Virus record (IMG/VR): IMGVR_UViG_3300021375_000014
Span: 1 to 64,000 of that record
Direction: 5' to 3' (one strand)
Source: a virus
Length of the DNA stretch: 64,000 bases
Numbering within the stretch: the stretch's first letter is position 1; each line of letters starts with the position of its first letter. The notes under the pieces are model-generated. The model saw only the letters and a list, made by a program, of their open reading frames with translations. It made no database searches and was not told the origin of the DNA. The translations under genes were made by a program, and so were the position numbers. This document shows positions 15,365 through 43,312 of the stretch, in pieces.

Positions 15365-15390
15365 AAAAGCACCTAATAGGTGCTTTTTTT
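15365..15390. terminator. Bidirectional terminator between thyA and the radical SAM operon
   Basis: AAAAGCACCT (15365-15374) pairs with AGGTGCTTTT (15378-15387), with T runs outward on both strands. It serves the converging thyA operon and the minus-strand operon, whose last stop codon lies at 15389-15391 in the T run. Confidence 0.9.
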
Positions 15391-16501
15391 ATGTCTTACG
15401 TTTTGGTATTTTACTATCTGCACTACTGACACAACTCTTGCTTATGCACGGCATTGGTTTGTCAAATAGTTTAAATCCACTTTCGATGTATCCCAATGGC
15501 TGATCTGAACAACTATAACTGCGTTTTATACTACCATCTGGTTCACGAATTATGATGCCTTGATAACCGCTATTACAACTCCAGCCTTCAAAGTTATTAA
15601 AATTAAATGCATTGAAACGCTCAGCCTGATCCATATACCATTTCTTGCCTTTCGAATCGGTAAATTCAACTTGCATATGCCACGGCACGCTTTTATCATT
15701 TTGACCAATAGCATATGCTGGAACTTGGAAATTGGGTTTGGGTCTATCATTCCATTTACGTTTTACCTCAGTATAAGCAAGTTGCGGCATACCATTCCAC
15801 AATCTTTTCATCTGTTCTTCCGTATATCCATCAACTACACGGCTTGCAGTAGGATCAGATTGCGGCTTCAATGTTACATTGATACCTTGTTCGTGAAAAA
15901 ATAATGCATTGTCCCAATCACGTTCAAACCAGTCTGGCACCATAACCATATTCACTGTAATTTGCACATCATTTTCTTGACATAATATAAGTTTATCTGC
16001 AAACTCTTGCATCTTATCTCTTGTGTTAAGATGTTCAGTATGTAAACTAGCAGTGATACTTGCACGATGAAATGGTTTAACTCTATCTACATAATCCTCA
16101 TGCCATTTAACATTACGTGACATATTAGTTGTCATATGAACACTGGTGTAGTTGGTATTTGATACATCGTCTGCAAGATGTTCCAGAATATCTAAATATC
16201 CTGGATGAAAGGTTGGTTCACCACCAGACAATGAAAAATGAAAACTATTAAATCCGTTTTCACGTGCTTGTCTCTTTATTTCATCTATGGTTCGTAGACA
16301 TAGTTCAGTAGGACGGTGGTCTTTACGGTCACTGCGGGCATAAGGCCAACAGTAGGAGCATTTGTAGTTGCAGAATCTTCCAAGTAACCAACTAACAGTA
16401 AATAGGTCACGGTACAATAAAGTACGCTGACCAACACTAACAATATCGTCAAATGGTATTTTTGTAAAGTCATAGTTAGACCATTTTAAATCTTCGCTCA
16501 T
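15389..16501 (-). CDS. Radical SAM enzyme, family B (core plus C-terminal cysteine domain)
   Basis: 370 residues. [4Fe-4S]-SAM motif CNYKCSYC (C44, C48, C51), SAM-binding SGGEP at about 93-97, then strands typical of the radical SAM barrel. The C-terminal domain (about 250-365) has FEGWSC, SYSC and CISKSC, likely binding an auxiliary cluster. This tail is clearly related to those of the genes at 23175 and 42305, and to the N-terminal half of the gene at 40936. Last gene of the operon; 3 bases after the preceding stop. Reaction unknown. Confidence 0.85.
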   Translation of the reverse strand: MSEDLKWSNYDFTKIPFDDIVSVGQRTLLYRDLFTVSWLLGRFCNYKCSYCWPYARSDRKDHRPTELCLRTIDEIKRQARENGFNSFHFSLSGGEPTFHPGYLDILEHLADDVSNTNYTSVHMTTNMSRNVKWHEDYVDRVKPFHRASITASLHTEHLNTRDKMQEFADKLILCQENDVQITVNMVMVPDWFERDWDNALFFHEQGINVTLKPQSDPTASRVVDGYTEEQMKRLWNGMPQLAYTEVKRKWNDRPKPNFQVPAYAIGQNDKSVPWHMQVEFTDSKGKKWYMDQAERFNAFNFNNFEGWSCNSGYQGIIIREPDGSIKRSYSCSDQPLGYIESGFKLFDKPMPCISKSCVSSADSKIPKRKT

Positions 16502-16504
16502 AAT

Positions 16505-17461
16505 CTATAAGTCCTCTTTAATAAATGTATCACGCTTCATCTGTTTACATACTTGCATACAACGAGGTACAGGATTATCACTATTCCAACTATTAACTAT
16601 ACCTTGCCATACATCGCTACTTATAGCATCTTCAACACTTACATTATTCAAGTTAATTGAATTTTTATAATCAGTATCTCTAAGTAATGTCTCATAACTA
16701 TCTTTGGTATTACCACTTACGCCATACTCCAATGTCTTTGCATTTAGATGACAACAAGGAATAACATCACCTGTATGGTTTATAAAAATTCGTTTTTGAT
16801 TTCCATACTTACAACTTACATAAGGAATTTCTGGTGCAGTATCAATCTTCTCTGTATTTGCTGCTTTTACATTTCCAGTAGTGTCTTTACGATGGCTAAT
16901 AATAGTTTTGAAGTTTTTAAAACCCTCAGCCGTGGCTTTATTTTTGGCTTTCTCCAATTGATGTTCGTTATGTTCGAACACGATAAACTGCCATACACTT
17001 TTGCCACCAGCTGCATTGAAAGATCGATAGTTTTGTTCTACTTTTTTGAAATTACTACCCTGCCGATATACTTCACTTAGTTCATCACTGCCGTCAATTC
17101 CCCAAGTAACATTATGGCTACTTGGTAAAATACCTGCTAACTCAGTCCACCAGTTAGTAGTTCGCAAACTACCGTTTGTTGCAATATTGATGTGCGTATT
17201 CCAATCAGCAAAATGACGGATAATATCAAAAAACTGTGGATGACTTGTTGGTTCGTCTATACTGCCACAAAAGTTTACAATTTTAATACTAGGAAATAAT
17301 TCTTTTTTAAATTTTTCACGTATAGTTTCTATTGTAAGATATTCTTTATTGATAAGATCATCAGCGTGTTTGGATATAACTCGCAAACAACCTTTGCACT
17401 CAATATTACAAAAACTAGTAAGTTCTATATCTAACCATTCTATTGTATCCATACTCCACAT
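16505..17461 (-). CDS. Radical SAM enzyme, family A (SPASM-like; CGxxxDP motif)
   Basis: 318 residues. Cluster motif CNIECKGC (C18, C22, C25). Where most radical SAM enzymes have GGEP, this one has NFCGSIDEPTSHP. C-terminal cysteines (VSCKYGNQKRIFI, VIPCCHL, CMQVCKQM) form a SPASM-like auxiliary cluster domain. Closely parallel to the genes at 22136 and 24203 (shared YRQ, HNEHQ and AGG segments). AGGGAG, 9 bases upstream, fixes the start. Substrate unknown; SPASM enzymes often act on peptides or proteins. Confidence 0.85.
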   Translation of the reverse strand: MWSMDTIEWLDIELTSFCNIECKGCLRVISKHADDLINKEYLTIETIREKFKKELFPSIKIVNFCGSIDEPTSHPQFFDIIRHFADWNTHINIATNGSLRTTNWWTELAGILPSSHNVTWGIDGSDELSEVYRQGSNFKKVEQNYRSFNAAGGKSVWQFIVFEHNEHQLEKAKNKATAEGFKNFKTIISHRKDTTGNVKAANTEKIDTAPEIPYVSCKYGNQKRIFINHTGDVIPCCHLNAKTLEYGVSGNTKDSYETLLRDTDYKNSINLNNVSVEDAISSDVWQGIVNSWNSDNPVPRCMQVCKQMKRDTFIKEDL

Positions 17462-17465
17462 ATTA

Positions 17466-18653
17466 TTATTCTCCCTGCATTGAATTATTTTTTAGATGGT
17501 AACCCAATTTCGAGTAATTATCAGTTACATAGTTACGAATATCGTTCCATAATTCACTATCTATATCACCAAAACTAGTTCCACGTATCAAGTCTAAGTG
17601 TTCTGTGTATTTTATAAACTCAGTCATTAGTGTATATGTAGTTAATGGATCATTCTCAGGCTGTGATAATATACTACGTATAGTGTCGTGATGTGGCAAA
17701 TTAATATATTTTTGTCGTATACTCCATGGCAGATTTTTAATATTTAATTTTTCTGGCCAAGTTAATGGTGATACTACATCACATTCTTCAACTAAATCAC
17801 CTAGATCATCATTTAATTTAAAGTAACTAGTTAAGTTGTAAATCTGTATAGTTTGACTGATTGTATATTTCCAATTTGGATAATCTTTCCCTATGATTCT
17901 ATAACGTTTTATAGTGTCCTTTAGTTTACTGTATGTACTATTAGTACGAATATAATCATTGATTTCACCAACACTGTCAATACTAAATTGCCAAACAATG
18001 TTAGGAAAATGCTTGACAAGATCAAACCAATACTGTTTGGTGGCAGTTGCATTAGTTGTTATCATAATATCAATGTCAGTATTGTTGCACTCTATTAACT
18101 TAGTTAAAATATCAAAACATTGTGGAGTTAAACTAGGTTCACCTCCTAATAGACGAAGTTCTTTGATGTCTTTAAGATGCTCACTGATTAATCCACTATT
18201 TACTTCTGTAATTGAAGGATTAATAAACTTTTCTTTTGCTATTTGACTACTAGCAATCTCATTACACATTCGACATTTAAGATTACACTTATTACTTAAC
18301 CGTAAGTCTAACGCAGAAGGAATGGAGGTATCTGTTATCTTATTTTTTTCATAGTGGTTAAGATATTTTTTATTCCTATCCTGCCTTTCACTCACAATCC
18401 CTAGATCTTCATTTCGATAACACGTTGCACAACTTGGATGCTCTGTATTTTCAAGCATCATCGTGCGCAAATTATTAAATTCACTATCAGCAAATAAACT
18501 ACGCATATTATCATGGCTACTGTATTTTACGCCTATGTAATTCGGATCTTGTACACAACAACTTTTAACACTGCCATCAGGATCAACATTTAGACTCGTA
18601 AAAGGAGCAACACAAAATTTAGATATGTTGTCTATTTCAGATTTATACCTCAT
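17466..18653 (-). CDS. Twitch-domain radical SAM enzyme, family C
   Basis: 395 residues from the ATG at 18653, which has an AGGAA site; an in-frame ATG at 18683 lacks one and lies deeper in the upstream gene. The N-terminal twitch-like cluster domain (FCVAPF, DGSVKSCC, CATCYRNE) precedes the radical SAM core, CNLKCRMC (C123, C127, C130), with LLGGEP. N-terminal twitch before the core is the hallmark of the twitch-domain radical SAM proteins common in phage genomes. Overlaps the upstream gene by 11 bases. Substrate unknown. Confidence 0.85.
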   Translation of the reverse strand: MRYKSEIDNISKFCVAPFTSLNVDPDGSVKSCCVQDPNYIGVKYSSHDNMRSLFADSEFNNLRTMMLENTEHPSCATCYRNEDLGIVSERQDRNKKYLNHYEKNKITDTSIPSALDLRLSNKCNLKCRMCNEIASSQIAKEKFINPSITEVNSGLISEHLKDIKELRLLGGEPSLTPQCFDILTKLIECNNTDIDIMITTNATATKQYWFDLVKHFPNIVWQFSIDSVGEINDYIRTNSTYSKLKDTIKRYRIIGKDYPNWKYTISQTIQIYNLTSYFKLNDDLGDLVEECDVVSPLTWPEKLNIKNLPWSIRQKYINLPHHDTIRSILSQPENDPLTTYTLMTEFIKYTEHLDLIRGTSFGDIDSELWNDIRNYVTDNYSKLGYHLKNNSMQGE

Positions 18654-19899
18654 GCCAATATTTCCTGAATTCTGGATAAACATCTAATATATTAGTTCCG
18701 TGGTGTTGGTCTTGTGCATTAGCGTATTCAATAAAGTCATCCCAATAATGATACCAATCCTCGCCATTCATATAATTAATTACGTTGTCACCAAATTTCT
18801 TCCATCGCTCAAATGATCTGTTTACAAATTTTTGTGAGTGATTATAAGATTGCATCCATTCTCTATCTCCATTAATCAATTCATCCCAATCATTTGTTAC
18901 TTTTTCTTTTAATGCCGGTGGTAACAATTTAGGATTTAATGGTTGAGGAAACTGAACAATACTTGTGTGATAATCAACTCCCATTGAATAATAATACTTG
19001 GCGATTTCAGTTGCTCTGGTAATATTTAATAAATTGGCTGTCATTGTTGCACTTAGTTGAATATTGCTTAACTGTAGTGCTTTTTTTATATTATCTTCTG
19101 CTATCGATAAATTACCTCGCACTCTAACGTATTCGTATATTTCAGGATACGCATCCAAACTAACTCGTATACTAACACGCTTAAAATGCTTCCACAAATC
19201 TAGTATACTTTTTCCCTTGTATTCTAGTGTACTAAAATTACTATTATATTGTAATGTAATATGGTTTGCTTCAGGTAAAATACGCTCTAAAAAATCATAA
19301 TGCTTATCATGGAACAAAGGCTCTCCGCCTGTAATCATCAATTCAGTAAGGTTAGGACTAAGTGAAACCACTTCATCAATTATCTCTTGTGTTAGACTAA
19401 CATGATTTTCAAGTTCCCTGTATGTTCCAACTTTTTTCATTTGCCCCATTAATATAGGATCTCGTTTCGCCTTCTGTTCCCATATGCTACTATATGTAGG
19501 TGAACAATGTCTGCACATTAAATTACAAATATTATCAAAACGTATTTCAATACTTTGTAGATTTTCAATTGGGTAACTGCCATCTTCTTCAATATTATTG
19601 ATAATAGTATTACTATCAACATCGGGATACATTTCAGACGCATTTTGGCGTAAACTTTTAGCACCACTACGTTCTAAATCCCAACAACTTATACATCCTT
19701 TATGCTGAACTCCATTTACTAATTCGGTTCGCACTTTACGTAACTGGTCGCCATTCCAAGTATCTGCAAGTGTATCTGTTAGAAAATCTCCAACCTTATC
19801 TGGATATCGCCAACATGCACTCAACTTGCCTTCATTTTTGATGTTAATATGATGGAAAGGCATTATGCAAAATGTATCACTCTTATTCTTATCAGCCAT
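18643..19899 (-). CDS. Twitch-domain radical SAM enzyme, family C, altered twitch cysteines
   Basis: 418 residues. N-terminal FCIMPFHHI, GKLSACW and CISCWDLE correspond to the twitch domain, but the usual CC pair is C-W here, so one cluster ligand is missing or replaced. Radical SAM motif CNLMCRHC (C125, C129, C132), then ITGGEP at about 188. The long C-terminal part is rich in aromatic residues. Starts immediately after the preceding TAA with AAGGA 8 bases upstream. Confidence 0.83.
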   Translation of the reverse strand: MADKNKSDTFCIMPFHHINIKNEGKLSACWRYPDKVGDFLTDTLADTWNGDQLRKVRTELVNGVQHKGCISCWDLERSGAKSLRQNASEMYPDVDSNTIINNIEEDGSYPIENLQSIEIRFDNICNLMCRHCSPTYSSIWEQKAKRDPILMGQMKKVGTYRELENHVSLTQEIIDEVVSLSPNLTELMITGGEPLFHDKHYDFLERILPEANHITLQYNSNFSTLEYKGKSILDLWKHFKRVSIRVSLDAYPEIYEYVRVRGNLSIAEDNIKKALQLSNIQLSATMTANLLNITRATEIAKYYYSMGVDYHTSIVQFPQPLNPKLLPPALKEKVTNDWDELINGDREWMQSYNHSQKFVNRSFERWKKFGDNVINYMNGEDWYHYWDDFIEYANAQDQHHGTNILDVYPEFRKYWHEV

Positions 19900-21309
19900 T
19901 TATATATCCTTAAATATGTCTTTCATCTCTACAAAGGTAGAACTGAAACTATTGTTGCGCTGCCTATCACATAGACTTAAATATTCTTTTAATTCTGGTA
20001 ACCTAATGCTCCAGTCTTCACTTTCCATAAATTGTAACATGCCTTGAAGACGTTTTATTCCGTATTCAGCTTCGATAAAATTTTCTTGTGTTATATTTTC
20101 CTTATGCCAACTTGGGATACCTTTTTCCCAATTCTCTTCCCACCATGGATAGAACTCTTCATACTTTTTACGTATTTCTGCTTTGAACCATTCGGGTAAT
20201 ACTTTAACGTTTAGGTGCGGAGGATGATAAACAAAGTGATAGTTAATACCACCTGCGCCAAACGGCCACATGTTTATTTTCGTAAAACCCTGTTCTAGTT
20301 TCCATCTGATGAAATCAGGTAAGTAGTAAATGTTTAAAGCCTGCACAGCACATGCAACTGTTACTTCTACATTGTCACTTGTTTGTGTATCTAATATATG
20401 AAATACTTCTTCCTGTCTGCTCCAGTTACTAGGATATCGAATATAATCATTCATACTCCCAATACTATCAACACTATAGTGAAAGCGTACTAATTTAAAT
20501 TCTTTCCATAGATCAAATAAATCATCTCTCCACTCTACGCCATTTGAGTTATAACGTAGTTCTAGATTCTTTGCATAACCATTACTAATTGCATGTTCAA
20601 GTATTTCGTAGTGTTCTTCAATAATAAGACTTTCGCCACCTGCAAAATATATCTGTTGCATACTAGGCATCTGTTCGTAAAACTGTTTCCAAAATTTTGG
20701 GTTTTGCTTGTGCCAATTATAACTACTTCTATTAGTACTACCTTTATCAGCCCACTGCATTGTTTCCTTTAGCGATTCGTTTTTTACCTCCGGAAAAATC
20801 TTTTTGTAATCTTTAATCCAACCACTACTATCATGTGGACTACACATCACACATGCTAATTGACACTTAGTACCAAATCTTAAATCAATATATGCTAACT
20901 GTGGAGGGACACCACCGTCTTCAGATGTGTTTTCGATAAGTTCATCAACATTTACACGTTTACTCCAATAATTTGTTTCCCACATACGTTTACTATTATG
21001 TCCCGATGCCTCTTCTTTGTAACACTTCATACAACTAGGAGGCTTTTCACCATTAAGCATTTGTAGTCGTACATTCTTCATGTAATTAGAATTCCAAGCA
21101 GTTTCGAAGTCACTAACATTTAGATTGTTTGGTTTGCCATCGTCTGTTTTCAGAATTCCAATTTGCCCGCCATTAACTTTATCATTGGTTGGACCAACGC
21201 TACTTGCATTTGCAGTACAACATACTCGCATACTGCCATCAGGACGAGTGCTAAGGTGTACCCATGGCAACAGACAAAATGTATCACTTGGATATTTTTT
21301 TTCAGACAT
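19900..21309 (-). CDS. Twitch-domain radical SAM enzyme, family C
   Basis: 469 residues. Twitch domain FCLLPWVHL, DGSMRVCC, CMKCYKEE; radical SAM motif CQLACVMC (C149, C153, C156); GGES in place of GGEP. A 40-residue insertion (SVGPTNDKVNGGQ and on) sits inside the twitch domain. The Trp/Pro-rich C-terminal third resembles that of the gene at 39199. First gene behind the consensus promoter at 21336, with GGAG 12 bases before the ATG. Confidence 0.85.
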   Translation of the reverse strand: MSEKKYPSDTFCLLPWVHLSTRPDGSMRVCCTANASSVGPTNDKVNGGQIGILKTDDGKPNNLNVSDFETAWNSNYMKNVRLQMLNGEKPPSCMKCYKEEASGHNSKRMWETNYWSKRVNVDELIENTSEDGGVPPQLAYIDLRFGTKCQLACVMCSPHDSSGWIKDYKKIFPEVKNESLKETMQWADKGSTNRSSYNWHKQNPKFWKQFYEQMPSMQQIYFAGGESLIIEEHYEILEHAISNGYAKNLELRYNSNGVEWRDDLFDLWKEFKLVRFHYSVDSIGSMNDYIRYPSNWSRQEEVFHILDTQTSDNVEVTVACAVQALNIYYLPDFIRWKLEQGFTKINMWPFGAGGINYHFVYHPPHLNVKVLPEWFKAEIRKKYEEFYPWWEENWEKGIPSWHKENITQENFIEAEYGIKRLQGMLQFMESEDWSIRLPELKEYLSLCDRQRNNSFSSTFVEMKDIFKDI

Positions 21310-21335
21310 TTGGTGTTTACTCCGTTATTATACGT

Positions 21336-21364: not shown

Positions 21365-21369
21365 TATAA

Positions 21370-22152
21370 TTAATCATTAATTATTTCTCCATACGCCCAT
21401 TCACGTTCCTGACACCACCAACAAGTATTACACGTTTTAGTCCAGTTATCGGTTTTATGACCATCCCCTTCACAACTACGAGTGATCTTATCTAGTGTAT
21501 CAAGTATACCGAGGTTATCTGCCAACCACATTGTTACACGTTTATCTGCATTACGAAATGGTTCAACATATCTACAATCATCACCATTTGCATTGTGTAC
21601 CACAGTACAACTATCTATTGCAACTGCCGGACTGTTAGGGTCATTGTGGTCACGTTTTACTTCTCTATACTGGTGCATATTATCGATAGTCATAGGCACA
21701 GGCGGATTTTTAGTGACACCATTATAATCATGTACTCTACACACTTGATTATTTGGCATTTCTGCTTTTCGAATTGGATTATAATTTTGCGAAACTAAGT
21801 TTTTTTGTGCAGCAAGATATGTTGCACTTCCATTTTCCCACCAGTTTATTGCATCTAACCACTGTTTGTCTCTGATATCAGCATCTGGTATTTCTTTTCT
21901 AACCCAATCTATAATAGTATCTACTATTGGTCTATTATCAACCCGATAAAGCCATGTTCTGTCATCATCTGGATTTGCACGAACTACTGTAATAGGTTGA
22001 ATTATAGCATTAGGATTTGTTTCTGCGCATGTTTGTGCAACCATATACAATAATAGTGCACTATCAAATCCGCCACTAGTGCGAACTGTTATCATTTGTG
22101 ATTCTACCGGTATATAAACTGTACCATATGGTGTATTATAAATTTTGTTCAT
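21370..22152 (-). CDS. QueC-like PP-loop ATPase
   Basis: 260 residues. N-terminal PP-loop SGGFDS (26-31) binds ATP as in N-type ATP pyrophosphatases; the C-terminus has SCEG and CNTCWWCQER (C227, C241, C244, C247), matching the four-Cys zinc site of QueC. QueC makes 7-cyano-7-deazaguanine; QueC-like relatives attach such groups or adenylate other acids. The middle third is unlike canonical QueC, so the substrate is probably different. Overlaps the radical SAM gene at 22136 by 17 bases. No FolE, QueD or QueE partner lies in this window. Confidence 0.75.
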   Translation of the reverse strand: MNKIYNTPYGTVYIPVESQMITVRTSGGFDSALLLYMVAQTCAETNPNAIIQPITVVRANPDDDRTWLYRVDNRPIVDTIIDWVRKEIPDADIRDKQWLDAINWWENGSATYLAAQKNLVSQNYNPIRKAEMPNNQVCRVHDYNGVTKNPPVPMTIDNMHQYREVKRDHNDPNSPAVAIDSCTVVHNANGDDCRYVEPFRNADKRVTMWLADNLGILDTLDKITRSCEGDGHKTDNWTKTCNTCWWCQEREWAYGEIIND

Positions 22153-23224
22153 TGTGATCCTCTATCTTGAATTTTGCAATTGGTTTTGTTTCTTGGACTT
22201 TCTTACTACATGTGCTGGCACATTTAACCATCTTACTTCCGCAACTTGTACCATAATCTGAATCAAAACTTCCTACTAAATCTTTTTTATAAAATGGATG
22301 ATTTAATATGTCATTAACACTATGCAGATCCAACCTATTCCAATCAGGTGAATTATATTCACTATACATAGTTTTACTTACCTGATGCCAATGTGTATTA
22401 TGACCGCCGAATTCAGTATTTCTAATAAAACAGCAAGGCCACAGACGCGCATTGAAATCAATAAAATACATTTTTTGTCTTTGAAAGAAACAATCAATTG
22501 GATCGTTTTCAACACTTTTCTTTGATATAAAAAACTTATCAAGATCGTCTGGGCTTGAATTATTATATTGTTTATCTTCCGCCTGTAGCCTCTGTATGTC
22601 TTCTATTTCCCAATTATTCTCAGATATCATACTTCGGTCTAACCTATGTATGAAATTCTTAAATCCCATCTGCTTGCTTTTCTCACTTGCTTCTTCAACT
22701 TGATGTTTGTTCCATGGAAATACCAAATATTGCCAGCCCGCATCTCCGCCCGCGTGAATGAAAGATTCTGCATTTTCCATAATTCGATTAAAATTAGTTC
22801 TTTGTCTATATAAATGATTGGTATCGTGTAAACCATCTATACTAAATTTCAATTGGTGCCGGTCAAACTGTTGTAGTATTTCAGCAGTTTCAGCCCAGTA
22901 ACTTGGATTTCTAATACTACCATTAGTATGTATCCAAACTTTTTTTATTCCACATTTCAGTGCTAACCTAAGAATATCATTAAATTGAGGATGCATGAAA
23001 GGATCATCAACTGTTCCACAAAAGTCCAAATCTGTAACTGTCTCAAACTCATTTAAGAATTTTTCAATCACATCTAGTTGTAGGATCTTTTTATCTGGAA
23101 TAGTTGGCATCTTATCATTGAAATTTAGATGATTGGTACGTGCACAGCCGAAACACAGCGCATTACACATACTACTAATCTCTAGTTGTAATCGTGTAGG
23201 CTCCGGTAGATACATCTGTGTCAA
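22136..23224 (-). CDS. Radical SAM enzyme, family A (CGxxxDP motif)
   Basis: 362 residues from a TTG with GGAG 9 bases upstream; an ATG three codons later is the alternative. Cluster motif CNALCFGC (C20, C24, C27); FCGTVDDPFMHP replaces GGEP. SPASM-like C-terminus with IDCFF, WPCCF, SCGSKMVKC and STC. Very similar to the genes at 16505 and 24203. Overlaps the QueC-like gene downstream and the radical SAM gene upstream by 50 bases, so translation is coupled. Confidence 0.85.
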   Translation of the reverse strand: MTQMYLPEPTRLQLEISSMCNALCFGCARTNHLNFNDKMPTIPDKKILQLDVIEKFLNEFETVTDLDFCGTVDDPFMHPQFNDILRLALKCGIKKVWIHTNGSIRNPSYWAETAEILQQFDRHQLKFSIDGLHDTNHLYRQRTNFNRIMENAESFIHAGGDAGWQYLVFPWNKHQVEEASEKSKQMGFKNFIHRLDRSMISENNWEIEDIQRLQAEDKQYNNSSPDDLDKFFISKKSVENDPIDCFFQRQKMYFIDFNARLWPCCFIRNTEFGGHNTHWHQVSKTMYSEYNSPDWNRLDLHSVNDILNHPFYKKDLVGSFDSDYGTSCGSKMVKCASTCSKKVQETKPIAKFKIEDHNEQNL

Positions 23225-30867: not shown

Positions 30868-31133
30868 TTAATGTAATGTATTTCAAACCAGGTTAGCATT
30901 TCTTTTCCTTCTTCTGGAGTAGCATTAAACCATTCACCATGTACGCGACGATGTGCATATTCCCGGTGTAGTTTTTTCTCCAATTTAACAACATCACCAT
31001 CTATATGAATTGTTTCAATAATATTGAGTTTTTTTGCATTTCCAGTTTGTAGTGTTTTGAGTCTTTTTTCTGGATTATTACTAAATCCAAATTTACACAA
31101 TTCTGCTCCATCAGATATACAATATATATACAT
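30864..31133 (-). CDS. GIY-YIG-like (T5orf172/MUG113) domain protein
   Basis: 89 residues. MYIYCISDG is the GIY-YIG-like first strand, CKFGFSNNPEKRLKTLQTGN the second strand with conserved Arg, KLEKKLHREYAHRRVHGEWF the Glu/His region. This matches the compact T5orf172/MUG113 variant of the GIY-YIG nuclease superfamily. Many such phage proteins have no tested nuclease activity. ATG overlaps the upstream stop. Confidence 0.75.
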   Translation of the reverse strand: MYIYCISDGAELCKFGFSNNPEKRLKTLQTGNAKKLNIIETIHIDGDVVKLEKKLHREYAHRRVHGEWFNATPEEGKEMLTWFEIHYIN

Positions 31134-35605: not shown

Positions 35606-36246
35606 TTGTAATACCTATATAAAGTCTGTGCTAATTCAAATTCTTCACGCACATCAATGTCAATTGCTTCAAATTGGTTCATAGTAAAATATTCAAACTC
35701 CAGAGGTATCATATATTTAGCTTCACGCAAGTCTTGCATTTTACACACTGTCCCTGCATAAGGGAACATATATACTGGATCAATGCCCTGGCTATATGGG
35801 TGCCATAAACCGAATGAAAAGTTAATAGGACGCTTATTCACATCCAAATAATAATGAGTACTTGCATGTACTGCTATTTGATTTTTACCACTATATATAT
35901 AGGCATCATATAATTCTTTATAACGATTAAATAATGGACAACACACAAAAGTATAAACAACATCTTGGTTATCGTCAACTGGAACATCATTATATATTTG
36001 CTCTAGTACATATGAAAATCTTGTAACATTATTACAATACTTCGCATCTCGGTGAATATAAGTTACATTTTCAGTATCTGAAACTTCTTTATCATCTGTA
36101 CTTATGTAAACGTGTTCTGCTCCTGCTGCGAATAATTGTTCTAGTTTAATGTCTACCAGTGTTTTGTCACCATCAAATATATTGTGATGCTTACCTGGTA
36201 GTCGATCACTTGTCTTTTTGTAATTTGTTACTCCTACAAATCCCAT
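35602..36246 (-). CDS. CMP-sugar synthetase-like nucleotidyltransferase (NeuA/KdsB-like)
   Basis: 214 residues, the usual length for CMP-Neu5Ac/CMP-Kdo synthetases. SDRLPGKHHNIF parallels the R-x-PGK nucleotide loop, VYISTDDKEVSD the second strand, TFVCCPLF the core, and AIDIDVREEFELAQTLY the C-terminal metal-binding DID motif. The N-terminus is shortened at GFVGVTNYKK. Activates an acidic sugar for transfer; which one is unknown. Confidence 0.72.
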   Translation of the reverse strand: MGFVGVTNYKKTSDRLPGKHHNIFDGDKTLVDIKLEQLFAAGAEHVYISTDDKEVSDTENVTYIHRDAKYCNNVTRFSYVLEQIYNDVPVDDNQDVVYTFVCCPLFNRYKELYDAYIYSGKNQIAVHASTHYYLDVNKRPINFSFGLWHPYSQGIDPVYMFPYAGTVCKMQDLREAKYMIPLEFEYFTMNQFEAIDIDVREEFELAQTLYRYYK

Positions 36247-36247: not shown

Positions 36248-37135
36248 TTAATATCTTTCTATAAAACAATTATTGTTACCATATTCTAATAATCTGCGAA
36301 CCAATATCGGGTCATCCGTTATTTTAAATTTTGTTTCTTTTTTCATACCAGGGAATGTGACACGTACTGTATCACTATCATCCGGTAATATGACATTGCA
36401 ATTTTCTGCAAATCGTACTAAGTCAAAGTCCGGATCTCTTACATATCCTCGCTGATCAGGCTGACTCCAACCATCATGATAACTATAAAGATGCAAATGA
36501 GATACTAACCCTTCGATTTTTTCAATGAATCCCAACAGTTTTCCATCATAACTAGATTCTAGTTGTGATATGGTAGTTATATATTTATTAACATCAATAG
36601 TATTAATTGGTATGTTAATACGACTATTATCTTTGGGTATCATTACTATAACTCGTAGCGGCTTATCTATTATCTGGTGTGCTTGTGCTAACGTACTGCC
36701 TGGATGAATAGTGTTATGGACAATATTACTCAAGACTGGTGGCGACTTGACTTCGGTATTAACTAATTCAGATGCTAACAATACAAGTCTTAAAAAACGA
36801 CTGAATAGATTATTGTAATCTTCCTGGTCGAGGGTATCAATTATTTCAAGGTCTTTAAGAAAACTTAATCCAGTTAACACTCCATTACCACTAGGTATAC
36901 TATGATACTTTTCTTGAAGATTACCCAAATTCCACAAGTAACTCATATTATATTTCCTTGCATCAATAAAACAATCTAGTAAGGTAAATTCATCCAATAC
37001 CTGTAGCCAATCTGCGTATGTTGGCTGTGCTACAGTTCTCCAACTATGCGAGGGATGAGATAATAATGCATAATCTACATCATCATCTCTTCTGTTTAGA
37101 AAAATATCATTAAATAATTTATTTTCATCATTCAT
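36248..37135 (-). CDS. Hypothetical protein of the radical SAM operon
   Basis: 295 residues from the ATG at 37135 that overlaps the upstream stop; a longer frame to 37183 starts inside that gene. Mixed alpha/beta, with a central PLRVIVMIPK strand, IHPGSTLAQAHQI and a C-terminal VRFAENCNVILPDDSDTVRV. No family or catalytic motif recognised. Tight coupling to a radical SAM gene before it and an NTP-transferase after it places it in the same pathway. Confidence 0.65.
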   Translation of the reverse strand: MNDENKLFNDIFLNRRDDDVDYALLSHPSHSWRTVAQPTYADWLQVLDEFTLLDCFIDARKYNMSYLWNLGNLQEKYHSIPSGNGVLTGLSFLKDLEIIDTLDQEDYNNLFSRFLRLVLLASELVNTEVKSPPVLSNIVHNTIHPGSTLAQAHQIIDKPLRVIVMIPKDNSRINIPINTIDVNKYITTISQLESSYDGKLLGFIEKIEGLVSHLHLYSYHDGWSQPDQRGYVRDPDFDLVRFAENCNVILPDDSDTVRVTFPGMKKETKFKITDDPILVRRLLEYGNNNCFIERY

Positions 37136-39272
37136 TATGTAGAGTAATCCCATCAAATTCTGATATATTACCAGATGCTTCAAATACTTGTTTTTCGAAT
37201 GACATGTCTTCTCTTTTTATTTCATAATGTTCTATCGTTTTATCATCATTCTGTGCAACGTGTTCAAACTTATACCAGCATTTAAATTCATAATCTCCGT
37301 TGTCATTGACATTCCATGATGCTTCACCCGATAACATTGTGGCAAGGTTCATACCAAATTCTTCCATATCTAATTCTGGATCCCATATCATTTTAAAACT
37401 ATGACCACCAAACGCTTTATACATAATCCACATATGAGGTAGATTTTCGTTTGCTAAACTTGCAGCAAATTGAACTTGTATGTGGTCATGCTTGAATTTA
37501 TTAAAATCTTGCTTGTCCTGTTGCGGAATATAATCTACATATTTTCCTGGATTATTCCATTTAAAATCTACAAACTTATCAAATCCGGGGCGGCTCTGGG
37601 CATTGATTACTGAGCCTTCTGCTTCATTAACACACATAGATAGCCATTGGTTCACGTATTTTAATCTAATTGCACGATGCAGGACGGTATTTTCATATCC
37701 ATGGGTATACCAATTACTCATAAATTTATTATCCCACGGCTTTTCATTCCATGCTATATTATAGTCTTTCCAATTCTTATTCATATCACTAAGAGGTGCA
37801 TCGCCACAAGTCATACCAGGGCTAATAACAGTTACCCAATTTCTAGTATTATATAATACATGTAGGCTATGACACCAATCGGCAGTAGTTTCAGTAGGAA
37901 AACCTATTACCCAGTTTACATGATTTTCAATATTTGCAATTCTGGCGTCACGCAGATTGTCTTCTATTTCCCAAACTTTAATTTTCTTCTTCATTTCGTC
38001 TAATACTTTTTCGCTTCCACTTTCAACTCCAAAACTTAATAGACTACAGCCACTTGCTTTAATTTTATGAAAGAAATCCAAATCCATTCTACCGTCACAC
38101 CTTGCATAACTATTCCATCGTATATCCATTTTTCTTTCAATGATTTGGTCCACTAAGTCTCTAAAACTTTTCAAGTTGCCGTTAACTAAACTATCAACAA
38201 ACCAAAATCTATTTGTTCCATATGTATCAATTTGATGCTGCATTTCATCAATAACATTATGACTGTCACGTGATCGAAATTTCCAAAAATGCGTCTCACT
38301 GCAGAAACTACACAATGCAATACAACCTCTGCTAGTTTCTATACTTACTCCACCCTGCGTAGTATATTCATTGAGATTATAGTCACTGTAATCTGGAAAT
38401 GGCAGTTGATTAAGGTCTAATCTGCTTTTGACCCCGCCAAAATCATAAGGGCCTTCTGCTATTGGATAGTCACGATGATTGTCTAAAAAGCCTAAAAGCA
38501 TTTCTTCTCCTTCGCCTATAATACGAACATCAAATGAATTTATTATATCAACCAAATGCTCGAGGTGACGATGCTCGGGATTAGGATCTCTATCATCTAG
38601 CCAGTCTTGAAAGGATTCTGGACCACCTATTATTATGCATATCTCAGGTGCTAATCTTTTTAATTCTTTCATCATATATGAGGTAGGTAGAAGATTGGTT
38701 GCATACATACTAAATCCAACAAATTGAGAACCATCAGCAATTATCTGCTGTATAGTTTCATCAAGTAACGGTTTGAGTGCATCTCTAATATAATTATCAT
38801 AATTAGGGACCTGCCAATGATCCCAATAAATTGCATCCCACGGATCATAATTTAACATTCTTTTAAGATGATGATATGCTTTTATATTTGTATCATGTAC
38901 ATTAACTTCATATCCGTTATGTCGAAGCAACGCAGATAATCGTGCAGCATTATATGGGGGGAAGACAACACCCCATGCAGGACATACAACAAATGATATT
39001 TTACTATCAGCAAGTGGTTTGTTTAGGGAACTCCAATATTGATATTTAATATCTGATTCGTGTTGTAGTGACCACGGTATATATTTCTTTTCAACATCCG
39101 GATTGTCTAGTTTGCCAAGATGACTATTAGCATGCCGCATTTCTTCTTCATGCTGAATAACACTCAGAACAATTTGATCTCTATCTTCACTATCAAAATT
39201 AAATTTTGTGCGCTTTAGATTTTTTGTTGGAGTAGTCTGCAAGTTTTGTTCTTTGTTTTCTTTGTTCGGCAT
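37128..39272 (-). CDS. Radical SAM enzyme with N-terminal B12-binding-like domain, family D
   Basis: 714 residues. Residues about 90-265 form the Rossmann-like domain of B12-dependent radical SAM enzymes (FPPYNAARLSALLRHNGYEV, IIIGGPES, IIGEGEE), but the cobalamin DxHxxG signature is replaced by DTNIKA. Radical SAM motif CIALCSFC (C317, C321, C324), then a barrel with FVDSLVNGN, LLSFGVESGSEKVLDEM and WVIGFPTET. A C-terminal 230 residues of unknown fold follow. Overlaps the preceding gene by 74 bases. Cobalamin use is doubtful. Confidence 0.85.
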   Translation of the reverse strand: MPNKENKEQNLQTTPTKNLKRTKFNFDSEDRDQIVLSVIQHEEEMRHANSHLGKLDNPDVEKKYIPWSLQHESDIKYQYWSSLNKPLADSKISFVVCPAWGVVFPPYNAARLSALLRHNGYEVNVHDTNIKAYHHLKRMLNYDPWDAIYWDHWQVPNYDNYIRDALKPLLDETIQQIIADGSQFVGFSMYATNLLPTSYMMKELKRLAPEICIIIGGPESFQDWLDDRDPNPEHRHLEHLVDIINSFDVRIIGEGEEMLLGFLDNHRDYPIAEGPYDFGGVKSRLDLNQLPFPDYSDYNLNEYTTQGGVSIETSRGCIALCSFCSETHFWKFRSRDSHNVIDEMQHQIDTYGTNRFWFVDSLVNGNLKSFRDLVDQIIERKMDIRWNSYARCDGRMDLDFFHKIKASGCSLLSFGVESGSEKVLDEMKKKIKVWEIEDNLRDARIANIENHVNWVIGFPTETTADWCHSLHVLYNTRNWVTVISPGMTCGDAPLSDMNKNWKDYNIAWNEKPWDNKFMSNWYTHGYENTVLHRAIRLKYVNQWLSMCVNEAEGSVINAQSRPGFDKFVDFKWNNPGKYVDYIPQQDKQDFNKFKHDHIQVQFAASLANENLPHMWIMYKAFGGHSFKMIWDPELDMEEFGMNLATMLSGEASWNVNDNGDYEFKCWYKFEHVAQNDDKTIEHYEIKREDMSFEKQVFEASGNISEFDGITLHNE

Positions 39273-40935
39273 TATTCATTCTCTCTATGGCGCCTGCTAG
39301 GTCAGGTAAACTTTCTTTCCAATCTTCGTTTCGTAACTTATCTAATTTTATAGTTGTTTCTTTAAATTTATTCCAAATTTTACTATCTGGTTCTTTACTC
39401 CACATTTGCGCTAATACTTGACGTAATGAATGTTCAGTAATTTCACACCATAACATACCATGCGTAGTACATCTTGCATCAGGCCAACGTTTCCATATAT
39501 GACTGATAAATCTATTATATAATTCATCAACCTCTTGCTTTAGCCTGTCGGGTAAATGGTGTATACTATATTCTTCAGGTCCGTAAACCAAATGTACATG
39601 AATTTCATTGTTAAGTCTAGTATAATTTTGTTCCTTCATCCAATACATAAAATCCGGTAAATGAAATACATTCATTACACTACATGTAAGAGTTATTTTG
39701 CCTGTTAAGTTGTCTAGTCCTGTCGCAGTATCAATCTCATTGAGAATGCGTTCAGTTTTATTCCACTTACCAGGATGTCGGATATATTCAAAATGACTAT
39801 ACATCCCGTCTAAACTAAGTCCCAATGAAACATCTTTAAATTGTTTCCATAATTTAAAATAACTTTTAGTACTTGCTGCTGCATTAGTGTTATATTCTAA
39901 GGTAACATTCTTGGAATGTCCAGCATCTATTATATTTTCTAAAAGTTCTTTATGTTTATGATTGATGGTAGGTTCGCCACCAGTAAAGTAAATTCGTTTA
40001 ATATCAGTAATATTATTATTAATATCGCTCCATAATCTAGAATCTTCGTACCAACTTTTCATATGTGGTATTTCAAGTTGTCCTTTTTTATTTGTTATAA
40101 TTGCAGCTTTTTCGCCGTCTAAATCAATTATAATATTAGTGTTGCCATCGTCTTCTTGAATAGATTTATAATCTTTATACCACAAGTCACTATTTGATGG
40201 GCCACAAGTTCTACATTTTAGATTACACTTATTGCCAAATCTCAAATCCCACCATTCAATAGGAAAGTCAGCATGGGATATCGTACCGTCTTCATCTGTC
40301 ATATCAAGTGCTTTTGCCATTGTATCTGGAAATGATTGATTGGCATATGCGCGCCTAGAAGACGGTATATTTGTATCGGATGAATCTTCTTCTTCCCAAC
40401 ATAGTTTACAAACAGAACTTCGTTTTCCTTTAAGCATGTCACTTCTGACTGTTTTCCACAACTTTGCATTACGATGCTCCGAAATGTTGTCATTGTAGTT
40501 TAGTAATCTACCGTCATCTTTTTTTATCAATCCTACATTTGATAGTGAATCATTAAAAATCATTTGGCAACACGCTCTGATTGTACCGTTTGCATTTGTT
40601 CCAGCATGAACCCAAGGAATACTACAAAATGTTTTATGCATTGGGTGGGATTTATCTACTTGTTTAGGTTTAGAAGCCTCTAATTTTTTAAATTCTTTTA
40701 ACCATGCAGCAAAATCAATATTACTATTTTTATATATCAATTTTTCTATATCATCATTGCAACGATCAGTATTCAACACAGCATATAATACTATCGGATC
40801 CGTGTCAAACTGAGCAACTGATTCTAACACATTTAGTGGACAATCTTCATGTTCTACCATAGCAATACGTTCGGCTGCAGTACGTCTTATACTACTATCT
40901 AAATTAAACATGTTTTTATTAATTAAATCTACCAT
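39199..40935 (-). CDS. Twitch-domain radical SAM enzyme with HEAT-like N-terminus, family C
   Basis: 578 residues, about 110 longer than its relatives. Residues 10-85 look like helical HEAT-type repeats (SSIRRTAAERIAMVE, CPLNVLESVAQFDTDPIVLY). The twitch domain follows (FCSIPWVHA, GTIRACC, CKLCWEEE), then CNLKCRTC (C237, C241, C244) and FTGGEP at about 318. Best matches the 19900 protein in its C-terminal half. TAG of the gene before is immediately followed by this ATG. Confidence 0.85.
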   Translation of the reverse strand: MVDLINKNMFNLDSSIRRTAAERIAMVEHEDCPLNVLESVAQFDTDPIVLYAVLNTDRCNDDIEKLIYKNSNIDFAAWLKEFKKLEASKPKQVDKSHPMHKTFCSIPWVHAGTNANGTIRACCQMIFNDSLSNVGLIKKDDGRLLNYNDNISEHRNAKLWKTVRSDMLKGKRSSVCKLCWEEEDSSDTNIPSSRRAYANQSFPDTMAKALDMTDEDGTISHADFPIEWWDLRFGNKCNLKCRTCGPSNSDLWYKDYKSIQEDDGNTNIIIDLDGEKAAIITNKKGQLEIPHMKSWYEDSRLWSDINNNITDIKRIYFTGGEPTINHKHKELLENIIDAGHSKNVTLEYNTNAAASTKSYFKLWKQFKDVSLGLSLDGMYSHFEYIRHPGKWNKTERILNEIDTATGLDNLTGKITLTCSVMNVFHLPDFMYWMKEQNYTRLNNEIHVHLVYGPEEYSIHHLPDRLKQEVDELYNRFISHIWKRWPDARCTTHGMLWCEITEHSLRQVLAQMWSKEPDSKIWNKFKETTIKLDKLRNEDWKESLPDLAGAIERMNNAEQRKQRTKLADYSNKKSKAHKI

Positions 40936-42315
40936 CTACTGTTCCTTAAAAAATTCTATTTCATTATCACTGTAATTTACAAGAGATTCCGAATTATTTA
41001 TATCACGAATAGGAACTAAACTAAGTGAGCCCTTCATGCGTCCGTTTGCACCAGGCGTATGCCACTGTGAAATATTGAGTATTTTATCACGCATTGTTTC
41101 TGCTCTTTCTAGAAATCCTGGTGGGGTCATTAGTTTTATCTCAAGCCAATTATCTTCGTCAACTTTATCATGATGATCCATAATTATTTTACAATTTTCA
41201 ATGAATCTTTCTTCGTTGCCTCGGTATAGATCCATACTAGCAAAATGTGCACTCATATTAACACTATTAATATATTTTATTGCTTCACTCCAGAATTTTG
41301 TACTTCGACTGCCATTTGTAGTTACCAATATCCATTGATTTCGAGACTTTAAATATTTTAAAATGTCAATGAATTGCGGATGCATTGTAGGTTCACCTCC
41401 ACCAAAATTCCATCTGATTTGTTCGCCGTTGCCCCAATTATCGATAATCATATCGATAGTATTTATAACAGTTTCATATGATGGAAACTTTTCAGTATTA
41501 CTATGAACTGCCGGCCAACAATAGTCACATGCATAATTACATCGTCTTCCAATGTCCCATAAGATTTGATATGGAATAGGAAAGTTCATTTCTACTCCAA
41601 CGCTTTCATCTATATTATCAGTGAGATAATTCTTGCCACCACGTTTAGTGCCATCATATTGATTATGTGTCACATCCAGTAACTTCATATGTTCTACGGT
41701 TTTTGCTTTACTTAAAATTACATCCGCACCGCAGCCACAACTCTTAAAAGGACAAACTGTATAATTTTCAGGTATATCAATACCTTCACGAATATTGCCT
41801 AACAACCCCCAATTTTTCGGTATGTCATCTAATGTACTTTCCCATTTCCATGCACTTGCAGTTGTATCAATATTATCTGTTTGTATATTCTTTCCTAAAT
41901 TCTTGAAAAAAGTTTCTTCTGCTTCTTTTAATGCATCTTGTAGTTTAATATGTTGTTCGCATGTTTCCCAACCGTTCTTAGGCAACGGCCAACCACCTAT
42001 TGTATTTTCATTATACCATTCAATATGCGGATAAGAACCAAATATTCTTTCACGCTCAACCCTCCATCCTTCTACAGTTGTATCATGATGTGCAGTACTA
42101 TTTCTATGACTACTGGCACAGTTGCCATTCCATATATTACCATCATAATCTATATAAAGTCCACGCACTCCGGCACTACACTGCCATCCCTTCCATTTGT
42201 TATGTTCTCTTGCAATAGCCTCATCCACACTCATTCTAATAAACTTACCATTCGTATCATACACACGTAGTTGTTTATTATCTAATGGAATCCGAGGATC
42301 TGATTTAATCGGCAT
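40936..42315 (-). CDS. Radical SAM enzyme, family B, with domains in swapped order
   Basis: 459 residues. The N-terminal 215 residues (YDTNGKFIRMSVDEAIAREH, WKGWQCSAG, WNGNC, VCPFKSCGCG; C46, C66, C188, C193, C195) correspond to the C-terminal auxiliary domain of the 15389 and 42305 proteins. The radical SAM core comes after it: CNYACDYC (C259, C263, C266), FGGGEPTMHP. So the domain order is auxiliary-core instead of core-auxiliary. Overlaps the previous gene by 11 bases. Confidence 0.83.
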   Translation of the reverse strand: MPIKSDPRIPLDNKQLRVYDTNGKFIRMSVDEAIAREHNKWKGWQCSAGVRGLYIDYDGNIWNGNCASSHRNSTAHHDTTVEGWRVERERIFGSYPHIEWYNENTIGGWPLPKNGWETCEQHIKLQDALKEAEETFFKNLGKNIQTDNIDTTASAWKWESTLDDIPKNWGLLGNIREGIDIPENYTVCPFKSCGCGADVILSKAKTVEHMKLLDVTHNQYDGTKRGGKNYLTDNIDESVGVEMNFPIPYQILWDIGRRCNYACDYCWPAVHSNTEKFPSYETVINTIDMIIDNWGNGEQIRWNFGGGEPTMHPQFIDILKYLKSRNQWILVTTNGSRSTKFWSEAIKYINSVNMSAHFASMDLYRGNEERFIENCKIIMDHHDKVDEDNWLEIKLMTPPGFLERAETMRDKILNISQWHTPGANGRMKGSLSLVPIRDINNSESLVNYSDNEIEFFKEQ

Positions 42316-43312
42316 CTTCTAAGACCTCATATCTATTTTTAGGAAGTAATTTTTTACTCATAATATCAAAGTTACAATGACACATACTTTTTGTGCACAT
42401 TACAGGCTTAGTTGGCCATTTGATATTCTTTGGTAACTTCATATTACCAAGAGTTCCGCCCACTCTACACCAGCCAATCATTACACTACCATCAAAGTCT
42501 ACTACAATCTGTTCTATTCCACTCCAACACAACCAACCTTTCCAGTTGTTTGTCTTATCATTAATAAAACGATGTGCACTGCTATTTTCACTTAAATTAT
42601 TAACATCATCGTGCATTTGCATACTACCACGATATATAGGCCAAGACTTTGTATGTTCTATATTACTTGCTAGATCATGCCATTGTCTATCAATGTATCC
42701 TATTTGTGCATCAGTATAAGTATAAAGTGTTTCACCAAAATCTATAATTAACGGTTGCAAAGCAAGGCTAATATTTGGAATACTAATAACGGTTTCAGCA
42801 AGGTCTTGACAGATTGGCCATATTTCAGGATCATAATGCATCATTATGTTTACATGGGTACGACATTGTTCACTCATAATCTTAACTACGTTAAGAAAAT
42901 GTTCGGCATCGCCTTCTTCTGGATGAAAGCTTAAGCAAACATGATCGAATTTCTCTTTGTTCTTTTCCCACCACCGTACGGTACGACTTCCATTACTGAT
43001 AAATCCAATGTCGTGTCCAATAGATTTAATATATTCAGCACACTTAATAAAATCTTTCCATAAGGTTACTTCTCCTCCAGTAAATTCGAAATATACTTTA
43101 CGAGGGGAATAATGTTCTACAGTGGCATCAATGAATTCATGAATAATTTTAAAATCATTCCATCCAAAACTACCATCATTTAGTATACTAGGACAATATG
43201 AACAAGTAAAATTGCACATATTACCCAAATTCCAATTCACAACTACCCAATCTTTACACTCACTGTGATGATGATCTAGTCGATTATAAAAGTCTTGTGG
43301 TCCTAAGGGCAT
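42305..43312 (-). CDS. Radical SAM enzyme, family B
   Basis: 335 residues. Motif CNFTCSYC (C33, C37, C40); FTGGEV where GGEP is expected; FISNGSRTVRWW; C-terminal auxiliary domain WKGWLCWSG, GWCRVGG and CTKSMCHC. Closest relative is the 23175 protein. Directly follows a 59-residue gene (stop then start). Confidence 0.85.
   Translation of the reverse strand: MPLGPQDFYNRLDHHHSECKDWVVVNWNLGNMCNFTCSYCPSILNDGSFGWNDFKIIHEFIDATVEHYSPRKVYFEFTGGEVTLWKDFIKCAEYIKSIGHDIGFISNGSRTVRWWEKNKEKFDHVCLSFHPEEGDAEHFLNVVKIMSEQCRTHVNIMMHYDPEIWPICQDLAETVISIPNISLALQPLIIDFGETLYTYTDAQIGYIDRQWHDLASNIEHTKSWPIYRGSMQMHDDVNNLSENSSAHRFINDKTNNWKGWLCWSGIEQIVVDFDGSVMIGWCRVGGTLGNMKLPKNIKWPTKPVMCTKSMCHCNFDIMSKKLLPKNRYEVLEDAD

Follow-up and report, generated by a model that had tools for sequence, protein, structure and literature searches.

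What would a phage make with twelve radical SAM (rSAM) enzymes encoded within 28 kb, and on what substrate would they act? The window analysed here is a stretch of 64,000 nucleotides (positions 1 to 64,000 of the IMG/VR record IMGVR_UViG_3300021375_000014), and its source record is a 95,949-bp sequence from a T4-like myovirus, an uncultured ocean phage. Between 15,389 and 43,312 it holds twelve long rSAM open reading frames of four architectures, each with an intact CxxxCxxC motif; these genes, and all others described below from g15389 to g47173, lie on the minus strand. A search of the whole record with the Radical_SAM profile PF04055 recovers eleven of the twelve at E <= 0.001, ten of them over the Pfam cut-off and g24203 among those recovered with 28.7 bits, just below it. 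The remaining gene, g22136, has no Pfam match and is recognised through its homology to PHROG 21308 (1.7e-19) and to g16505 (29% identity over 340 aa, E 1e-39, in an all-against-all comparison), so that the count of twelve in the initial annotation stands. Entire genomes of the Bdellovibrionota type, 1.5-4.5 Mb in size, contain only 9-56 rSAM genes, and the density in these 28 kb is therefore far above background.

The four families proposed earlier are regained by all-against-all blastp and phmmer. Family A consists of g16505 (16505-17461), g22136 (22136-23224) and g24203 (24203-25288), the last with its start placed by alignment with its orthologues; its open reading frame opens at 25369, and TTG at 25288, which matches the orthologue starts, is the likeliest start codon instead of GTG at 25369. 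Within this family g16505 is a radical SAM/SPASM protein with both Pfam models over cut-off (SPASM PF13186, 24.1 bits against 21.5), and the SPASM model has no match in g22136 or g24203. Family B comprises g15389 (15389-16501; Radical_SAM 59 bits), with an rSAM core and a C-terminal auxiliary Cys domain, together with g23175 (23175-24206; 32 bits), g42305 (42305-43312; 39.5 bits) and g40936 (40936-42315). The last has the swapped domain order that had been read from its motifs, with the auxiliary Cys motif at residue 43 and the core at residue 259, and this permuted order is kept in 13 other loci, whose matches span residues 1-459. We tried prokaryotic viperin as an identity for family B and rejected it, as NF038283 gives at most 53 bits against a cut-off of 180 and covers the rSAM core alone. 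Family C contains g17466 (17466-18683; 263 bits), g18643 (18643-19899; 326 bits), g19900 (19900-21309; 421 bits) and g39199 (39199-40935; 341 bits), all of which pass the whole-protein cut-off of 170 bits of the NCBIfam N-twitch rSAM model NF033640, a model that defines an architecture and not a function. Family D is g37128 (37128-39272) alone, a B12-binding rSAM by its Pfam B12-binding and Radical_SAM matches, for which the nearest NCBIfam models are B12 rSAMs of the P- and C-methyltransferase type, every one below cut-off. Searches of solved structures with the rSAM profiles return generic rSAM matches only (viperin, SkfB, NifB).

What is new here is the structure of the set, a conserved rSAM trio with nine accessory genes, and not rSAM abundance. 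Clear orthologues of g15389 (B1), g24203 (A1) and g19900 (C1) occur in 110, 131 and 120 loci, respectively, including 19, 16 and 17 in Bdellovibrionota, and the other nine genes are patchy, with orthologues in 2-14 loci each (14 for g16505). Core orthologues share 45-90% identity and paralogues within the window 23-32%; by this comparison the paralogues are old and specialised, as a multi-step pathway would predict. The 125 loci fetched with A1 contain C1 in 98 cases, the gene with a methyltransferase fold in 95 and that with a glycosyltransferase fold in 83, in each case no more than about 10 kb away. The trio is also present in Bdellovibrionota chromosomes, accompanied by GT-A-fold and methyltransferase-fold proteins and sometimes almost alone; one near-minimal island (L117) holds the glycosyltransferase-fold gene, C1, B1 and A1 only. 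In the B1 tree the bacterial sequences are split from the viral clade with support of 100/100, one long-branched viral row excepted. The genes are not scattered in relatives, since the 51 B1-fetched loci with full flanks carry 4-12 rSAM genes each (mean 7.1) and large related phage records 8-23, in agreement with the co-occurrence expected earlier. The suggestion of a stepwise pathway on one scaffold keeps its footing in the age and specialisation of the paralogues, but there is no fixed set of twelve, only the conserved trio and a variable remainder.

Two further proteins travel with the trio as core partners. The first, g25985 (25985-26902), combines an N-terminal helical domain with a class I methyltransferase fold; its AlphaFold model (pLDDT 95) finds SAM methyltransferases as the top Foldseek matches (E 2.5e-8 to 1e-6), and by this Rossmann-like fold it is predicted to be a class I SAM methyltransferase. 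Nicotianamine synthase and CntL are also among the matches, and its activity may instead be that of an aminocarboxypropyl-transferase. A paralogue, g26903 (26903-27844; 27% identity over 169 aa), lies beside it. The second partner, g27825 (27825-28916), is a tandem GT-A-fold protein (pLDDT 87) for which Foldseek returns GT2-type glycosyltransferases, SunS and ppGalNAcT (E 2e-6 to 1e-3), with a low global TM because the query has two domains. The residues D193 and D195 of its DxD motif are conserved in the family alignment, and fold and motif together predict GT-A glycosyltransferase activity for it and for its paralogue g43521. The labels methyltransferase-like and glycosyltransferase-like are thus upheld by predicted folds, although family models give them no support.

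The carbamoyltransferase named in the initial annotation, at 28950-30485, is a NodU-type O-carbamoyltransferase that matches both the N and C models of Pfam Carbam_trans (160 and 185 bits). Its start is overlapped by a 37-aa open reading frame ending in DPFIYK (30482-30595), overlooked in the initial annotation, whose position is kept in relatives. Upstream follow an SGNH-type protein recognised by inspection of its sequence (31133-31864; Pfam DUF6071, 34 bits against 27), an SGNH/GDSL-like protein (33781-34764; Lipase_GDSL_2, 22.9 against 32.9, under the Pfam cut-off), a Stf0-type sulfotransferase-like protein (34808-35605; 24.7 against 22), a previously overlooked cytidylyltransferase-like protein of the CMP-sugar type (35602-36246; CTP_transf_3, 23.9 against 22.6) and g36248 (36248-37183), which lacks a significant family match and has two relatives, one at 86% in a scan and one at 60% (locus L237), too few to inform function. 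Two PP-loop ATPases, at 21370-22152 and 25281-25946 (25% identical), had been called QueC-like. The first has an invariant SGGxD motif and an invariant QueC-type C-terminal Cys motif in its alignment, features common to QueC itself, and both pass the Pfam QueC model (24.1 and 24.7 bits against 22), mainly with their C-terminal parts; TIGR00364, the equivalog for QueC as 7-cyano-7-deazaguanine synthase, reaches only 18.4 and 18.9 bits, far under its cut-off of 150, again over the C-terminal part only.

The initial annotation had considered the scaffold of such a pathway not to be visible, but a candidate lies immediately beyond the coordinates that it covered. In relatives the block at 43521-48216 keeps its synteny with rSAM genes; here it contains g43521 (43521-44477; 34% identical to g27825), an unassigned protein that is syntenic in relatives (g44474, 44474-45046), a GT8-type, glycogenin-like glycosyltransferase (g45031, 45031-45891), its paralogue g45888 (45888-46748; 23% over 233 aa), a small conserved protein (g46748, 46748-47155) and the fibre-type protein g47173 of the GYGQ family (47173-48216). 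The profile of the g45031 family finds glycogenin in the PDB at E 1e-6, a likeness that covers about 105 N-terminal positions and does not imply the substrate. A scan with g45031 fetched 79 loci, in which g43521 is present in 74, g45888 in 78, g46748 in 76 and the GYGQ family in 76, within four genes of the glycosyltransferase in 57 of them. The GYGQ proteins are rich in Ser and Thr (20% in g47173, 24% across the family), and the order that recurs is fibre genes, GYGQ, three glycosyltransferases and then rSAM genes; the last occur in 69 of the 79 loci, and all 210 of them lie downstream of the glycosyltransferase on the same strand, the nearest one at a median distance of 1.7 kb. In relatives, genes for fibre proteins that bear S74 or G2 autoprocessing domains sit directly upstream, and 11 of the 79 loci contain genes for UDP-sugar dehydrogenases. 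In one Bdellovibrionales chromosome (L112) the block recurs with its gene order unchanged, beside an apparent pheT. Position, composition and fibre neighbours suggest that the GYGQ protein is a virion component.

The product of the cluster is probably an unusually elaborate chemical coat for the virus particle, or else for the host surface, and no cultured phage has yet shown chemistry of this kind. As to substrate and product, we infer, tentatively and at somewhat less than even odds, that the region from 15.4 to 48.2 kb is a late, plastic host-recognition locus that makes a heavily modified glycoconjugate, most likely placed on g47173. The glycogenin-like and GT-A glycosyltransferases would glycosylate this Ser/Thr-rich, putative virion protein while it is still in the cytosol of the host. 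The conserved radical chemistry, be it dehydrogenation, epimerisation or C-H functionalisation, would fall to the trio, with the sugar or the attachment residue as its target. The nine accessory rSAMs, together with the carbamoyl-, sulfo-, cytidylyl- and methyl-transferases, would vary the decoration between phages, and amide formation on a carboxylate by the PP-loop ATPases might be among these variations. We consider it possible, if somewhat doubtful, that this amounts to an undescribed virion-decoration system, in which glycogenin-like enzymes glycosylate a fibre protein and an rSAM cascade rebuilds the sugar or the attachment residue, with a radical core of three common to Bdellovibrionota and a variable outer set providing phage-specific surface chemistry. 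If the fibre is indeed decorated in this way, virus surfaces would be the site of an extensive radical chemistry that is still unexplored, with a bearing on phage-host binding, and rSAM families of unassigned function would gain a testable substrate; the three-gene core of Bdellovibrionota is small enough for reconstitution.

The coat may instead be that of the host. A pelagimyophage host-recognition cluster downstream of VrlC, the same kind of genomic place, contains tail fibres, GT8 glycosyltransferases and variable rSAM cassettes, and its GT8 genes were read by the authors as modifiers of the host O-chain (PMC7029224); a conserved rSAM trio and the GYGQ-glycosyltransferase-rSAM order do not figure in the sections of that report on this cluster. 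By analogy, the locus would remodel host O-antigen or capsule during infection, for instance to block superinfection, with phage-made enzymes acting on nucleotide- or lipid-linked sugars destined for export by the host. Genes of the cytidylyltransferase, sulfotransferase, carbamoyltransferase and SGNH types are typical of surface polysaccharide loci, and some Bdellovibrionota islands (L113 and L120, by inspection) adjoin NDP-sugar and glycosyltransferase genes. On the other hand, a search of the cluster for a multi-span flippase or polymerase of Wzx/Wzy-type glycan export found none, and neither these, nor a ligase, nor any other multi-span membrane protein is seen there, since the only predicted span is a single TM-like segment in one 89-aa protein. 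Host exporters could supply these steps, but the tight order on one strand, which in most relatives follows a fibre-type gene, fits a host glycan less well, and we regard this alternative as rather unlikely, though worth serious consideration.

A protein, and not a glycan, could also be the main product. SPASM and twitch rSAMs frequently have peptide substrates, and those of the cluster may for this reason modify protein directly, altering amino-acid side chains of GYGQ, or those of a small partner protein, much as RiPP maturases do. Among the NCBIfam rSAM models that come nearest, all of them below cut-off, many describe maturases of peptides or metalloenzymes; the profile A2 matches SkfB in the PDB, and a highly conserved 74-aa protein, HHNS, overlaps the methyltransferase-fold and A1 genes in 77 loci and would be such a partner. 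Neither the window nor the Bdellovibrionota islands contain HHNS, however; the searches, all of a general kind, brought up no RRE or PqqD-like protein; and the glycosyltransferases and nucleotide-sugar genes would be left unexplained, which makes maturation without a glycan an unlikely account.

Returning to the decorated fibre, its single pathway is set against the idea that unrelated rSAM cassettes piled up in a recombination hot spot, as most of the rSAM genes, nine out of twelve, have a patchy distribution (2-14 loci) and the pelagimyophage host-recognition region is described as plastic (PMC7029224). The conservation of the trio with its glycosyltransferase-fold and methyltransferase-fold partners across phages and bacteria, and the strict order and strand behind the glycosyltransferase block, make such an accumulation improbable. 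Most B1-fetched phages do not have the glycosyltransferase block within 10 kb of B1, so the trio and the block may be separable systems in one hot spot; the rSAMs that adjoin the block are mostly divergent N-twitch paralogues (about 20-30% identity) and not the trio.

A hypermodified nucleobase, offered earlier as an option and here taken as 7-deazaguanine-based DNA made with the QueC-like ATPases, could draw on the presence of two such ATPases and of an adjoining thymidylate synthase-like gene read from the sequence (14492-15361), but we reject it as the main reading and hold it to be very improbable, given the partial QueC matches (18-19 bits against 150), the lack of QueD/PTPS in the (incomplete) 95,949-bp record, the location of PTPS, in the 6 of 13 searched records that have it, at a distance from the rSAM clusters that is usually tens of kb, and the occurrence of the trio in bacterial chromosomes without QueC-like genes.

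Every short open reading frame in intergenic space was clustered in a search for RiPP-type precursors; it yielded the HHNS protein and the 37-aa DPFIY open reading frame, neither of which makes a convincing precursor in the case of this window.

Among known phages, Campylobacter phages CP220 and CPt10 are likewise rich in rSAMs, with 11 and 12 such genes, of which five belong to an exchangeable module (PMC2853527), and tblastn detects relatives of family A in them at 22.5% identity; their module differs in that it encodes a glycine amidinotransferase, and it has been interpreted as serving non-essential metabolism (PMC2853527). The marine T4-like genome TARA_ERS488813_N000010 has 12 rSAM genes, a likeness by count alone, as the relevant section of that report gives the number in an Fe-S context without families, operon or substrate (PMC5332604). 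Searches of cultured phages at the level of near DNA identity and by tblastn yielded nothing closely related to the cluster genes: the member genes compared with 50,697 cultured-phage records gave distant rSAM relatives only, and g15389, the QueC-like and the glycosyltransferase-type proteins had no match, CP220 included. Literature searches pairing rSAM with glycan and phage, or with carbamoyltransferase and LPS, found no report, and one for Bdellovibrio, radical SAM and phage found no such cluster in titles and abstracts. Environmental contigs with parts of the locus nevertheless number in the hundreds, with at least 536 and at least 542 matches in two scans, and single phage records with the locus carry up to 23 rSAM genes.

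The 64,000 bases analysed are part of a 95,949-base virus record that, judged from its gene content, is a fragment of a T4-like myovirus, because PHROG matches identify baseplate wedge proteins (58,255-62,971) and a virion structural protein (within 48,964-58,251), and a capsid and recombination gene set, assigned by inspection, lies past 64 kb in the same record. The initial annotation had claimed twelve radical SAM (rSAM) genes in four families between 15389 and 43312, and both number and grouping are reproduced here: the CxxxCxxC motif is present in 12 ORFs, comprising three SPASM-like proteins (family A), four with a core and an auxiliary Cys domain (B, the permuted g40936 among them), four N-twitch proteins that score well over the NF033640 cut-off (C) and one B12-binding rSAM (D). 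Pfam Radical_SAM detects 11 of the 12 in the record, 10 above the curated cut-off; g22136, the one it misses, is clearly homologous to g16505 and has a match in a PHROG rSAM family. The swapped domain order noted earlier in g40936 is confirmed and is not an assembly accident, since 13 other loci encode full-length counterparts. The start of g24203 is probably the TTG at 25288. In L073, L079, L088, L089, L096 and L112, the family B auxiliary Cys domain is a separate small gene, which in L112 directly follows a core-only rSAM gene and reads as a split rSAM enzyme.

The rSAM count itself is not new, because 11 and 12 such genes occur in Campylobacter phages CP220 and CPt10 (PMC2853527) and 12 in one marine T4-like genome of 183 kb (PMC5332604), compared with 12 in the window. 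Variable rSAM cassettes are described for the host-recognition cluster of pelagimyophages (PMC7029224), and rSAM-rich phage loci close to tail genes are a known kind. The top counts in this analysis, 20, 23 and 21 radical-SAM matches, are found in the related phage records L023, L043 and L046 (170-198 kb).

Scanning IMG/VR with a QueC-like protein, g15389 and g24203, and GTDB genomes with g15389, we gathered about 195 loci. Clear orthologues of g24203 (A1), g19900 (C1) and g15389 (B1) occur in 131, 120 and 110 of these, and those of the other nine window rSAMs in just 2-14 loci each; near-duplicate contigs and query choice inflate these counts, and the pattern holds across queries. A g19900 orthologue lies within about 10 kb in 76 of 117 g15389 loci and 98 of 125 g24203 loci, and g24203 is accompanied by the methyltransferase-fold (MT-fold) gene g25985 in 95/125 and by the GT-fold gene g27825 in 83/125. 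Identity is 23-32% between paralogues in the window and 45-90% between core orthologues; on this comparison, the paralogues are therefore old and probably not redundant. Among 50,697 cultured-phage records, tblastn gave no match to g15389 or to the GT-fold, QueC-like and GT8-like proteins, and the sole relatives present were distant ones of the family A, N-twitch and B12-rSAM types.

Of the 25 GTDB genome matches to g15389, nearly all come from MAGs of Bdellovibrionota or Oligoflexia; a few others (L101, L125, L116, L118 and L104) may represent phage contigs that were binned. When genomes were drawn evenly from the phylum, g15389 occurred in 17 of 291, a count to which several seed genomes contribute. 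The bacterial trio islands are compact, some on contigs of 350-940 kb, and the L117 island consists of GT-fold, C1, B1 and A1 alone, with no other cluster gene. Similar islands occur in L105, L107 and L115, and L103 and L109 have an additional, different PP-loop ATPase. The g15389 tree separates viral from bacterial sequences with support of 100/100, except for one long-branched viral row (L018) outside, a split that fits one or a few ancient transfers. In the literature searched, we found no trio common to phages and Bdellovibrionota.

Immediately upstream of the rSAM cluster in transcription, and outside the coordinates first annotated, lies a minus-strand block (43,521-48,216) of g47173, g46748, g45888, g45031, g44474 and g43521, in which g47173 represents GYGQ, a fibre-type family with 24% Ser + Thr, g45031 has a profile match to glycogenin and g43521 is a GT-fold paralogue. 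To test the link between block and rSAM genes, we fetched loci with g45031 glycosyltransferase peptides alone and analysed 79, although the query alignment was built mainly from rSAM-fetched loci and taking the 80 best matches favoured close relatives. GYGQ is present in 76 of the 79 (at most four genes from the glycosyltransferase in 57), g45888 in 78, g46748 in 76 and g43521 in 74; at least one rSAM gene occurs in 69 and at least three in 45. The 210 rSAM genes of these loci are all on the glycosyltransferase's strand and downstream of it, with none upstream. Most of those adjoining the block are diverged paralogues of the N-twitch type, and few of these loci have the trio within 10 kb. Block and trio could form separate modules of a single system or could be neighbours in a shared hot spot. 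In L112, a Bdellovibrionales chromosome, the block recurs with its gene order unchanged, adjoining an apparent pheT gene (by reading). Upstream of the block, relatives encode fibre-type proteins with S74 endosialidase-chaperone or G2 autoproteolytic domains. GYGQ, queried with its L153 relative, had no tblastn match in the 50,697 cultured-phage records, and neither the GYGQ-glycosyltransferase-rSAM operon nor the GYGQ protein as candidate scaffold appeared in the literature searched.

Structure prediction gives g25985 a helical domain and a class I methyltransferase fold (pLDDT 95); because its fold matches include nicotianamine synthase and CntL, both aminocarboxypropyl-transferring, this predicted methyltransferase-fold protein may transfer either methyl or aminocarboxypropyl groups. 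The g27825 model (pLDDT 87) has two GT-A-like domains with a conserved DxD, and matches GT2-type enzymes, the SunS peptide glycosyltransferase and polypeptide GalNAc-transferases. As the most economical reading, we infer a late operon decorating a fibre-type protein with rebuilt sugars: cytosolic glycosyltransferases would act on the protein soon after its synthesis, with the sugars being rebuilt by rSAM enzymes, PP-loop ATPases and group transferases. UDP-sugar dehydrogenases, whose genes occur in relatives, would supply uronic acids, whose carboxylate an amidating PP-loop ATPase could plausibly use. A search of the cluster proteins for membrane spans found a span-like segment in just one 89-aa protein, and this lack of membrane proteins argues against an exported, self-contained polymer. 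Close behind sugar decoration of the fibre stands remodelling of the host O-antigen, the published view for related loci, followed by direct side-chain modification of a protein; deazaguanine modification of DNA is unlikely. The conserved trio and gene order contradict a reading of the locus as nothing but a hot spot of unrelated cassettes, though such a reading may fit some of the accessory genes.

Several small proteins and side genes accompany these clusters. A highly conserved 74-aa protein with the motif FNKxAHHNSQNWY (L193:2740-2961 and 76 further loci) lies, in phages, between the MT-fold and A1 genes, often overlapping both; absent from the window and the Bdellovibrionota islands and matching no family, it is a possible substrate or partner. 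Small PFIY-ending proteins accompany carbamoyltransferases elsewhere; in the window, a 37-aa minus-strand ORF with C-terminal DPFIYK (30482-30595) overlaps the carbamoyltransferase start, and about 20 relatives have a similar short ORF beside a carbamoyltransferase or GT-fold gene. By reading, the window also encodes a small GIY-YIG- or T5orf172-like protein inside the cluster (30864-31133) and a ClpP-like protease (63298-63894), and outside it the record encodes a short SDR-like protein (G000:C1:74554-75156) that by eye resembles an SDR family recurring in relatives' rSAM clusters. The rSAM cluster of phage contig L018 contains a porphobilinogen deaminase gene (HemC, 217 bits; 5880-6713), with class III aminotransferase and UDP-glucose dehydrogenase genes nearby. 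Near the cluster in L145 (1120-2788), an AMP-binding ligase gene adjoins a weakly FeeM-like (N-acyl amino acid synthase) gene, and the two families recur in 19 and 30 loci, respectively.
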